From: Pseudomonadota bacterium
GTDB taxonomy: Bacteria > Desulfobacterota > Binatia > Binatales > Binataceae
DNA length: 64,000 nt
Direction: 5' to 3'
Assembly: GCA_021324885.1 (NCBI GenBank)
Contig: JAJPIF010000028.1
Location: forward strand, 186,001 to 250,000
The notes beneath the pieces are model-generated. The model searched no databases and had not been told where the DNA came from. It saw only the letters and a list, made by a program, of their open reading frames with translations. Positions 50,063 through 54,120 of this stretch are shown in pieces (the first letter of the stretch is position 1; every line of letters begins with the position of its first letter). The translations under genes and the position numbers were made by a program.

Positions 50063-51256
50063 TCAGATCGATAGCGGCAGGGCGGCCAGACCGCGCAGGA
50101 ACAGCGATCCGCGATAGCTCAACGGCGCCGCCGGATCGGCCAGCGCCAAATTCGGGAAACGCTCCAGCACCGACGCGATCGCGATCGATCCCTCCAGCCG
50201 CGCGAGTTGCGCGCCGAGACAGAAATGGATTCCGTGGCCAAACGCGAGATGCTCGTTGGGCGTGCGCGTGATGTCGAATGCGTCCGGCTGCTCGAATTTT
50301 GACGGATCGCGGTTGGCCGCGCCCAGCAGGACAATGACCAGCGTGCCCGCTTCTATCTCAACACCGCCAACCTGGTCGGGCTTGCGGGCCAGCCGGACGA
50401 CGCCCTGAACCGGGCTGTCGTATCGGAGCATTTCTTCGACCGCGGAGGTGATCGCATCCGGATGGCTGCGCAAATGCTCAAGCTGTTGCGGGTGGCGCAT
50501 CAACGCAAGGAGGCCGTTGCCGATAAGGTTGGTGGTGGTCTCGTTCCCTGCCATCAGGAGCAGGATCAGGAATGCCAGCAACTCTGCGGCCGTCAGGGCT
50601 TCGACCTCCTGATGTGCGATCAGGGCGCTGATCAAGTCGGGGCCCGGGTCATGGCGGCGGCGTTCGATTTCGGCTGCAAGGAATCCGCGCAAAGCCGCTG
50701 TAGCCTCGATTGCCTCGGGCGGGCGCGGCAGATGCGGCGGTACGGAGGAACTTGCGACGATGGCGTTGGACCATGCCTTGAACTCGCGATGGCGCGCGGT
50801 GGAAATCCCCAGCATCTGCGCAATCACCATCACCGGAAGTTGATTGGCCAGATCGGCGATGACATCGAATTCGCCCTTGCGCTCGACCTGATCCAGCAGC
50901 GTATTGGTAATCTCGCGGATGCGCGGCTCCATCGCGGCAATCCGGCGCGGCGTGAAGTCGCGCGACACCAGCTTTCTAAGCCGCGTGTGGTCGGGCGGAT
51001 CGGAACTCAATATCGTTGCGGCGCCTGCGGTCAGGTCGAGTTGGCGAAAAGGCGTGGCCTCCGGCCGATGGTTGGAGTAGGTCTCGTGGTCAGTGAGGAT
51101 TTGTTCGATCTCGCGATAGCGCGACACAACCACGGCTGAAAGCATCGCGGACAATTTGACCGGCGCAACCTGCAACAGAAGCCGGTAATGCGGATACGGG
51201 TTGGCCCGCACCTCGGGATCGAACAGCCTGATTAACGGCGTGCTGGCGGTTTGCAT
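50063..51256 (-). CDS. Cytochrome P450 (second)
   Basis: A 397-residue soluble P450. I-helix MAGNETTTNLIG, ExxR in EEMLRYDSPVQG, and the heme loop FGHGIHFCLGAQLARLEG with Cys346. Similarity in the N-terminal region (DPEVRANPYPHYRLL) and the DPPDHTRLRKLVSRDF motif is to CYP107-like bacterial enzymes, an inference. The ATG at 51256 has AAGGAT upstream. Stands 11 bp after the radical SAM gene and is the last in a tight three-gene operon (propeller, SPL-type radical SAM, P450). No ferredoxin partner is nearby. Confidence 0.93.
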   Translation of the reverse strand: MQTASTPLIRLFDPEVRANPYPHYRLLLQVAPVKLSAMLSAVVVSRYREIEQILTDHETYSNHRPEATPFRQLDLTAGAATILSSDPPDHTRLRKLVSRDFTPRRIAAMEPRIREITNTLLDQVERKGEFDVIADLANQLPVMVIAQMLGISTARHREFKAWSNAIVASSSVPPHLPRPPEAIEATAALRGFLAAEIERRRHDPGPDLISALIAHQEVEALTAAELLAFLILLLMAGNETTTNLIGNGLLALMRHPQQLEHLRSHPDAITSAVEEMLRYDSPVQGVVRLARKPDQVGGVEIEAGTLVIVLLGAANRDPSKFEQPDAFDITRTPNEHLAFGHGIHFCLGAQLARLEGSIAIASVLERFPNLALADPAAPLSYRGSLFLRGLAALPLSI

Positions 51257-51267
51257 CGAATATCCTT

Positions 51268-52110
51268 CTACAGGGCGTTGAAGCCGTCGCGGCTGAACAG
51301 GACCCGTTCCTGGCCCAAGCGCGACCTCATCGCCGCGATCAAGTCGTGCTCCGCGCCCTGTTCAAACCATCCCTCATACCCCAGGCGTTTGTACAGTTGC
51401 GGGATTCCCAGTGCGCGCGAGCGCCTGCCGCCGCTGCCGTCGCCGTCAACGTAGGTGTCGACTATGACACGATCGGCGCAGCCTGCGACGAGTTGGGCAA
51501 AGCGAACCGCGCGATTGGGCAGCATCGGGGAGATCGCCAGTTGCACGAAAATGCCGGCCTGCCGCAGGCGCTTGGCGGTAGCGATGCGGCGCGCGACCGA
51601 CGGCGAGGTCGGAGTCAGCCGGCGGCGCACGGTCTCGTCGTCGGTCTCCAGCGTGAGCGAGACGATTACGTGAGAACCCAGCCGCACGAGAAGATCGATG
51701 TCCCGCTCCACCATCGGACTGCGCGTCTGAAGCAGCAGGCGGCGGGGCGGATAATCGGCGAACAGGGCAAGCGCCGCGCGCGTTAGCTTCATCCTCCGCT
51801 CCATTCCCTGGTACGGATCGGTCGCGCTGGACATGAAAATCGTGCTATCCGCCAGTTTGCCGTTTTGTTGCAGCGCGGACAGTTCGCGCTCCAGAAGCTG
51901 CGGCAGGTTACGCTTGGCGATCACCCAGCTCCCCCATCGGCCACCGTCGATGTGCGCAACCGGAAGCGTGCGCACGTAACAGAACGGGCATCCACCGCCG
52001 TCACCGAAAGAGCATCCAAGGTACGGGTTGAGCGAGTAGCTGAAGGCGCTGAGAAAACCGCCGGTCGGGCTCAATGCGCGGGTTGCGTCCTGTTCGAGAT
52101 AGCGGCGCAT
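51268..52110 (-). CDS. SPL-type radical SAM protein
   Basis: A 280-residue protein of the spore-photoproduct-lyase-like radical SAM family. The iron-sulfur site is C33-x7-C41-x2-C44 in LGCSFGDGGGCPFCYVR, with four extra residues between the first two cysteines compared with CxxxCxxC. A typical GG.W..WVIAKRN then IFMSSATDPYQ follows, and later SLTLETDDETVRRRLTPTSP. ATG at 52110 is chosen as the end of the family likeness; it stands 4 bp after the stop of the propeller gene. Unknown substrate; such proteins could repair or modify nucleic acid or proteins. Confidence 0.83.
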   Translation of the reverse strand: MRRYLEQDATRALSPTGGFLSAFSYSLNPYLGCSFGDGGGCPFCYVRTLPVAHIDGGRWGSWVIAKRNLPQLLERELSALQQNGKLADSTIFMSSATDPYQGMERRMKLTRAALALFADYPPRRLLLQTRSPMVERDIDLLVRLGSHVIVSLTLETDDETVRRRLTPTSPSVARRIATAKRLRQAGIFVQLAISPMLPNRAVRFAQLVAGCADRVIVDTYVDGDGSGGRRSRALGIPQLYKRLGYEGWFEQGAEHDLIAAMRSRLGQERVLFSRDGFNAL

Positions 52111-52114
52111 TTGG

Positions 52115-53470
52115 TTAACGCGGCGACCAGAAGCCGACGCTGCCGTCGGCGATCGTGCGCGGCGCCTGTCCATCGATTGGAACCGCCCAAACCGACGGCG
52201 AGATATTTTCGGGCGGAGCCTGGTCTTGTTGTAGCACCGCGCCGGCAAAGACGATTGCACGCGAGTCCGGAGACCAGATCCGATGCGAAAGGGCATATTG
52301 GTCGAACACCCGATAGACCGTGGACTCGCTCGAACTCGCGATGAAATCGCACAACTTGCGCGGCCGGCCGCCCCCGGCCGCAATCACGTTCCACGTGTTT
52401 GCGTTCTCCCCGGTCCCGATGTAGGCGAGCCACTTCCCGTCAGGCGAGAAGAAATACGCGATCACCGGCGCGCTTACCAGGGTGCTGATGTTACCGGTTT
52501 CGAGGTCGAGCAGATTGATTCCATCATAGGACATCCTGCCTTCCCGCTTGAGGGTGGAGAAGGCGATGTGCCTGGAATCGGCCGCCCACTCGAACGCCGT
52601 CGTTCCGGGAGCCAGTCCCACCATCGGTTTTGCCTCGTTGCCGTCGGCGTCGGCGACCATCAGGTCGAATTGACCCCGGTGGTCGTTGAGCACATAGGCC
52701 AGATGCGATCGATCGGGCGACCAGACCGGGCTTCTGAAGGAAGCGGCCCCGCTGGAAAAAACCTTGACCACGTGCTGGTCGCGCGCCGTTATTTGTATCA
52801 GGCCCGCCTGCTCGGGACCGGAATCCTCGGGCGGCGCGTAATGGAACGCGAGATCATTCAGCGCCTGGTTCCAGTCAAAGAAGATGGGCAAGCCCTTAAG
52901 CAGCGCGCGGACGGGCCGACCCTCGCGCACTTCGGCGAGGATTAGGTCCAGACTGTCGCCATTTTCGGCGAGGAAGAAGATCCGTTGTCCGCCCGGCAGC
53001 CAGTAAAAATAAATCGGATGCTCAGAACTCTGAAACACCGTGATCGGCACGCGCCGAGTGAAGTTGTAAACATTTATCGCGAAATTGAGGCTGCCGCCGC
53101 GCCGCTGCGCGGACGCGTAAGCGATTTGGGTGGCGTCGGGCGAAAACGTGGGCAAATCGTAACTGATGGGCTGGACGGGGGCCGGCGGATCGCTGGCTAG
53201 AGCGGCGGGCACGATGGCGCCGCCGCGCGCTTGTTCGGCCTTGGACGTGCACGTAACGCACAAAGGCTTCCGGCATGCGGCGTCGCAGACATAGAGGTTT
53301 CCTCCCTCGCCGATATACGCGATTCGCCCGGCAATCGGAATCTCGGGAGAACGGCGCTGCCGCGCTCCTCCCACCGTTTTTCCCTGGTGGGATTTTGCCG
53401 CGGTGGATGGAGACCCAGCCGCGATCAGGATTGTCGCGATCAACGCAACGCTCAGCAAGCGGTGGCTCAT
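52115..53470 (-). CDS. Secreted TolB-like beta-propeller protein
   Basis: Exported protein of 451 residues with a signal peptide (RLLSVALIATILIAAGSPST). PD40/WD40-like repeat units read YDLPTFSPDATQIAYASA, SPVWSPDRSHLAYVLN, FEWAADSRHIAFS, YFFSPDGKWLAYIGTG and IWSPDSRAIVFAG. These are TolB-like blades, at least five, and three cysteines sit in CDAACRKPLCVTC. Such propellers bind peptides or polysaccharides in the periplasm. The start at 53470 is chosen since a longer frame upstream would overlap the opposite gene start region. First gene of the operon with a radical SAM protein and a P450. Confidence 0.82.
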   Translation of the reverse strand: MSHRLLSVALIATILIAAGSPSTAAKSHQGKTVGGARQRRSPEIPIAGRIAYIGEGGNLYVCDAACRKPLCVTCTSKAEQARGGAIVPAALASDPPAPVQPISYDLPTFSPDATQIAYASAQRRGGSLNFAINVYNFTRRVPITVFQSSEHPIYFYWLPGGQRIFFLAENGDSLDLILAEVREGRPVRALLKGLPIFFDWNQALNDLAFHYAPPEDSGPEQAGLIQITARDQHVVKVFSSGAASFRSPVWSPDRSHLAYVLNDHRGQFDLMVADADGNEAKPMVGLAPGTTAFEWAADSRHIAFSTLKREGRMSYDGINLLDLETGNISTLVSAPVIAYFFSPDGKWLAYIGTGENANTWNVIAAGGGRPRKLCDFIASSSESTVYRVFDQYALSHRIWSPDSRAIVFAGAVLQQDQAPPENISPSVWAVPIDGQAPRTIADGSVGFWSPR

Positions 53471-53613
53471 TGTATGCTCCAGTCTACCTGCAATCAGGCC
53501 GCAGGTCTCGCCTGAGCAGCCTCGCGGATGGCTGCAAATCGGAAAATCGGAGAAATTATGCGGGGAAACGGGCGCGGGTTGACAGTCGGCGCCAGGCGCG
53601 ACAAAGTTACGAG

Positions 53614-54120
53614 ATGCGCATCGCAGCGATAGTCGGTTTATTGGCTGCCTTGTTGGTCTCCCCTCCGGTGTTGCATGCTCAGCAGCAGGACCCCAATAGC
53701 CCGAGCAACAACGGATGGCAGTTGCACGACCCCAACGAGTATACGCAGGAAGATTCCCATCCGGTGCGCGCGATTGCCTCGTTGCTGAGCCCGATCGGCT
53801 GGGCGCTGGAATGGGGAATCGCGCGTCCCTGGCATTATCTGGCAACCAACACCTTCCTGGCGCCGGTCCTCAATGGCGGCGAAGATGACGACACGTGGAG
53901 CGAATATTACGGAGCGCCGGGCCAGAACGCCGAAATTCCTATGGTGCCGCCGGCCACCGAACCGCGAGCCAGCGCGCAACCATTGCAGGAGCAAAACCTG
54001 GGAAACGATGCGGCGCCCGCCGCGGTTAGCGGCCGCAGCACTGCAACGACAAATCCGCCACCCGTTGGTGCTCCGCCCTATTCGCAGTCTGAGCCACAGG
54101 ACCAGTCAGTATTACATTAG
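53614..54120 (+). CDS. Exported hypothetical protein
   Basis: A 168-residue protein with signal peptide (MRIAAIVGLLAALLVSPPVLHAQ) and cleavage after HAQ or AQQQ. A conserved-looking mid domain (VRAIASLLSPIGWALEWGIA, then RPWHYLATNTFLAPVL) has aromatic and membrane-near features. The C-terminal 60 residues are Pro/Ala/Gln-rich. No family recognised. Divergent from the propeller gene, convergent with the XDH-like gene, and separated from it by a terminator hairpin. Confidence 0.6.
   Translation: MRIAAIVGLLAALLVSPPVLHAQQQDPNSPSNNGWQLHDPNEYTQEDSHPVRAIASLLSPIGWALEWGIARPWHYLATNTFLAPVLNGGEDDDTWSEYYGAPGQNAEIPMVPPATEPRASAQPLQEQNLGNDAAPAAVSGRSTATTNPPPVGAPPYSQSEPQDQSVLH

Follow-up and report, generated by a model that had tools for sequence, protein, structure and literature searches.

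In a window of DNA from a member of the Binataceae, by which we mean the whole analysed stretch of 64,000 nucleotides, genes for an exported beta-propeller, a radical SAM protein resembling spore photoproduct lyase (SPL) and a cytochrome P450 follow each other almost without interruption. This row raises the question whether the three products serve one shared modification pathway, as proposed in a first-pass annotation, or whether the genes are merely closely packed, which the same annotation had offered as an alternative. A literature search yielded no paper uniting radical SAM, P450, beta-propeller, operon and precursor peptide. The following features are considered:

52115..53470, minus strand: exported beta-propeller, 451 aa, PD40/TolB-like
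51268..52110, minus strand: SPL-like radical SAM protein (rSAM), 280 aa, cluster motif C33-x7-C41-x2-C44
50063..51256, minus strand: cytochrome P450, 397 aa, heme motif FGHGIHFCLG
53579..53607, plus strand: conserved promoter-like element (TTGACA, 17 bp, CAAAGT), oriented to the small exported protein
53614..54120, plus strand: divergent small exported protein, 168 aa

Composition of the gene row

In agreement with the first-pass annotation, all three genes are located on the minus strand, with 4 bp between the propeller stop and the rSAM start and 11 bp between the rSAM stop and the P450 start. A simple scan for promoters gave no match in the stretches between the genes, whose spacing is compatible with a single operon; co-transcription of the packed genes is probable. 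When sister species were compared, third-position change exceeded first- and second-position change in all three genes, which on this basis look to be alike under purifying selection.

With regard to family affiliation, rSAM belongs to the radical SAM superfamily (Pfam Radical_SAM PF04055, 44.3 bits vs. a gathering score of 29.5), and the assignment of the third gene as cytochrome P450 stands, as its product matches PF00067 with 138 bits and carries the heme-ligand cysteine motif. Sixteen P450 matches are present in the same genome. The sequence at the site resembles CYP107A1-like and vitamin D3 hydroxylases, while Cyp153-class alkane hydroxylases have been reported for Binatota (PMC8262859). 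Elsewhere in the Binataceae, two or three related P450 genes form tandem arrays (G010:C38, G011:C417, G020:C69, G023:C115). The propeller matches the PD40 repeat PF07676 with 48.7 bits. Its earlier description as a TolB-like exported propeller is appropriate as far as the PD40 propeller and a predicted export signal are concerned, but not for TolB itself, because it reaches only 49 bits vs. the TIGR02800 cut-off of 343 and a better, full-length TolB match (329.6 bits) is encoded elsewhere in the genome (C2:197016-198254). The fold is generic PD40/WD40-like, with a structural Z common to many WD40 and DPP-like propellers that does not indicate function. Of the cysteines near the N-terminus, C71 and C74 occur in all members, and most members also have C62 and C66.

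The divergent small exported protein matches no Pfam or NCBIfam model, and its gene lies upstream of that for the propeller, at a distance of 143 bp. Its ATG begins 7 bp beyond the TTGACA-17-CAAAGT element, with 6 bp between the two, and both the TTGACA part and the short distance to the ATG recur across the family. As judged from the sequence, this arrangement suggests a leaderless mRNA for the small exported protein.

Conservation and independence of the three genes in the Binataceae

The gene order was followed through 41 genomes of the family (Candidatus Binataceae). The full three-gene order is present in four of these, namely in all three genomes of the source genus and in one genome of another genus (G004). 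The tight row therefore recurs in relatives and is not an order conserved nowhere, the outcome that according to the first-pass annotation would have spoken against its proposal. Its presence in two further genomes of the genus and in G004 indicates more than chance packing in a single genome. Taken one by one, the genes are distributed very differently: an rSAM orthologue (61–100% identity) occurs in 29 genomes and the propeller in 19, while a P450 is found at the site only in the four genomes of the family mentioned above.

After two incomplete genomes and G040 had been set aside, 12 genomes contained both propeller and rSAM, six the propeller only, 17 rSAM only and three neither, such that presence of the two genes is not associated (odds ratio 0.35, Fisher p 0.26). 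When the genes were mapped on an rpoB tree comprising 30 genomes, four changes were needed to explain the distribution of rSAM, three for the propeller and two for the P450. Each of the about four losses of rSAM splits sisters of equal propeller state, and in two of them the propeller has been retained in place. On the other hand, propeller and rSAM are adjacent in every one of the 12 genomes that hold both, across six genera, the distance between them ranging from about −4 to +16 bp, and such nearly overlapping genes could reflect a loose functional tie. The propeller might then serve as a periplasmic sensor or scaffold for damage requiring rSAM, with the P450 as a passenger. We consider this unlikely, because rSAM occurs without propeller in the 17 genomes just mentioned and the propeller without detected rSAM in six to seven, and because it is the divergent small exported protein that accompanies the propeller constantly: the two face each other in 19 of 19 propeller genomes, including seven without detected rSAM (in one of these, G040, the contig stops at the expected rSAM position). 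In most genomes that have rSAM but no propeller, rSAM itself faces the small exported protein. The latter is the most constant neighbour at the site across the family and, since it lies opposite either propeller or rSAM, the constant feature is this protein and the site rather than the trio.

The P450 merits separate consideration. The site P450s of the source genus and G004 form one clade (97/85) apart from other Binataceae P450s, and G004 takes the basal position in the rSAM tree of the family. Together, this argues that the P450 joined the site a single time, be it at an early stage or through transfer, and that the other genomes of the family lack it there. The triad could thus be old or could have moved as a unit, and the single clade of site P450s counts against a reading as separate genes. 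A single joining event leaves room for a tie between P450 and rSAM in two genera and none for a family-wide pathway. In its strongest form, the pathway idea would have rSAM and P450 act sequentially on one small molecule or envelope component, while in the periplasm their product is bound or transported by the propeller; this pathway would be ancestral and would have been dismantled in most genera. The P450 clade, the basal position of G004, which would permit an ancestral triad, and the short gap separating rSAM from P450, approximately 10 bp in each of the three genomes of the genus, are in line with this scenario. We nevertheless regard it as quite improbable, as retention and loss of the propeller are independent of those of rSAM, most genomes hold rSAM without a P450 at the site or, in the case of 17, without a propeller, and neither a transporter nor a precursor or other biosynthetic gene is conserved there. 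The check for a precursor peptide that had been suggested earlier also returned nothing conserved: no small ORF is kept in the two intergenic gaps flanking the row, which is not what is expected of a RiPP cluster.

The shared modification pathway proposed at first was therefore not borne out and is rejected as the main reading, given that propeller and rSAM are unassociated in presence and absence, that losses are separate and that the P450 occupies the site in four genomes. Separate loss, the constancy of the small exported protein, the membership of the P450 in a set of 16 and the failure to find a precursor peptide render a dedicated three-gene pathway unlikely. Close packing, in the form of separately useful genes, fits better. 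As a whole, the explanation that we favour, with modest confidence, is one of separately useful genes that are packed neighbours, with rSAM probably acting on nucleic acid. The small exported protein would anchor a chromosomal site in the Binataceae, at which up to three separately useful genes are lined up head to tail, probably co-transcribed without forming one pathway. The propeller would act in the periplasm, functionally independent of rSAM, and the P450 would be one of a large P450 set that has been kept at the site in two genera. rSAM would be a soluble SPL-fold enzyme that binds a [4Fe-4S] cluster through Cx7Cx2C and generates a 5'-deoxyadenosyl radical, its likeliest substrate being nucleic acid, at a lesion or a modified base. 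The route of SPL, in which a cysteine at the SPL position gives the hydrogen back, would be barred to it.

Fold and probable substrate of the radical SAM protein

Sequence searches did not detect a homologue of known structure for rSAM. An AlphaFold2 model (pLDDT 90.3, pTM 0.90) had its best match in 4FHE, a spore photoproduct lyase structure (Z 16.7, 240 aligned residues with rmsd 3.7, 12% identity), followed by lipoyl synthase as the next structural family (Z 14.9), and rSAM is accordingly predicted to adopt the SPL fold. The best matches among NCBIfam models are the PA0069 family NF033668 (104 bits) and the Rv2578c family NF038135 (73 bits), with scores far below the respective cut-offs of 360 and 430, so that rSAM was not assigned to either family. 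The original SPL label is therefore justified for the fold and for the nearest NCBIfam models and does not extend to the protein being a spore photoproduct lyase. A second, distant SPL-like protein encoded in the same genome (C20:224803-225339, 34% identity) may be of the PA0069 type. True SPL, with scores of approximately 500 bits, occurs alongside the rSAM relative in five of ten tested genomes (Paenibacillus, Gordonibacillus), while no match was obtained in the Cohnella genome or in two from Alicyclobacillus, and two Ktedonobacteria had weak matches only.

With respect to function, the neighbourhood of rSAM relatives in Paenibacillaceae is informative. In five of seven loci, ung (three) or adaA (two), with domains confirmed, immediately precedes the relative in the same orientation; depending on which start codon is assumed, the gap is about −32 to 96 bp. 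A point against the repair reading is that this link comes from a distant phylum and from about two independent arrangements. According to the literature, COG1533/SplB is a repair gene under SOS control in several groups (PMC8565304, PMC3765255), and no flavin photolyase (PF03441) scored above cut-off in the 41 family genomes. In combination, the ung and adaA neighbours, the literature on COG1533/SplB and the absence of flavin photolyase matches above cut-off point indirectly to nucleic-acid repair, and it appears most likely that rSAM acts on damaged nucleic acid. If it repairs nucleic acid, it would represent a second direct-reversal activity of the SPL type, in soil bacteria without flavin photolyase above cut-off.

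Binataceae lexA genes are preceded by the direct repeat TTCGCC-N5-TTTCGCC (L274, L275, L276, L277, L279, L280, L281), a candidate LexA site of the direct-repeat type. SOS control of the site was considered and rejected, because this repeat was not found upstream of it, a result that also counts against the repair reading. In one family genome, a distant SPL-like radical SAM match (G041:C149:21402-22594) directly adjoins a lexA homologue.

Cluster spacing and comparison with known systems

Within a family, the radical SAM signature is commonly taken to have a nearly constant spacing. Among the aligned Binataceae rSAM members Cx7Cx2C is present throughout, and C33, C41 and C44 are the only invariant cysteine columns in the alignment and the presumed sites of cluster binding. 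The wider subfamily, surveyed in loci L160-L188 and L046-L048, exhibits a first spacing of 3 in Paenibacillaceae and some Chloroflexota relatives, 5 in relatives from family f5, 6 in Acidobacteriota, 6 combined with a second spacing of x3 in Ktedonobacteria and others (L182 was read by eye as x6_x3) and 11 in Alicyclobacillus and Symbiobacteriaceae relatives. On a tree built without the motif, these spacings require several separate changes, with weak support for the deep branches. Since peptide methyltransferases with Cx7Cx2C have been recorded (PMC5682303), the rSAM spacing itself is not unprecedented; the unusual part is the variation of the spacing inside one SPL-fold subfamily.

That the same spacing is known from peptide methyltransferases of polytheonamide-like clusters (PMC5682303), and that radical SAM folds are alike across functions, would agree with rSAM being a radical enzyme of the RiPP or small-molecule type that has no more than its fold in common with SPL. 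This appears improbable to us, since rSAM lacks SPASM-like extra cysteines at its C-terminus as well as a fourth conserved cysteine, no conserved peptide was found beside it and the neighbours of its relatives in Paenibacillaceae are DNA-repair genes. Returning to an action on nucleic acid, we tentatively propose that rSAM is part of a hitherto undescribed subfamily with the SPL fold, distributed over Binatota, Acidobacteriota, Chloroflexota and Bacillota, the members of which might repair or edit a nucleic-acid lesion other than the spore photoproduct without a cysteine hydrogen donor, and in which the length of the cluster loop may have changed repeatedly (3, 5, 6, 7, 11). The varying spacing among relatives means that motif-based annotation can miss members. 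While the gene row itself teaches little, the SPL-like rSAM subfamily merits separate attention.

Among known systems, SPL (SplB; TIGR04070, PDB 4FHC-4FHG) provides the closest solved fold for rSAM, and the profile alignment spans 167 columns, the match to true SPL being moderate (probability 93), which is likewise a point against the favoured explanation. rSAM differs from it in the cluster motif, Cx7Cx2C instead of the canonical Cx3Cx2C, and at the position of the hydrogen-donating cysteine of SPL (in EAACTSDP), which aligns with Ser95 or Ala96. An identification as spore photoproduct lyase was rejected on the basis of this missing cysteine and a score of 15.6 bits vs. the TIGR04070 cut-off of 400. 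With the B12 radical SAM methyltransferases of the polytheonamide type rSAM shares the cysteine spacing Cx7Cx2C; in contrast to those clusters, no conserved peptide precursor was found in the gaps flanking its row, and the spacing occurs inside an SPL-fold family. The propeller has PD40-type repeats in common with TolB of the Tol-Pal system and carries a predicted export signal. Finally, the P450 matches PDB 4RM4, the vitamin D3 hydroxylase 3A4Z and P450eryF (CYP107A1) over its full length with conservation of the heme motif, while in contrast to these bacterial P450s it belongs to a large set of Binataceae P450s.
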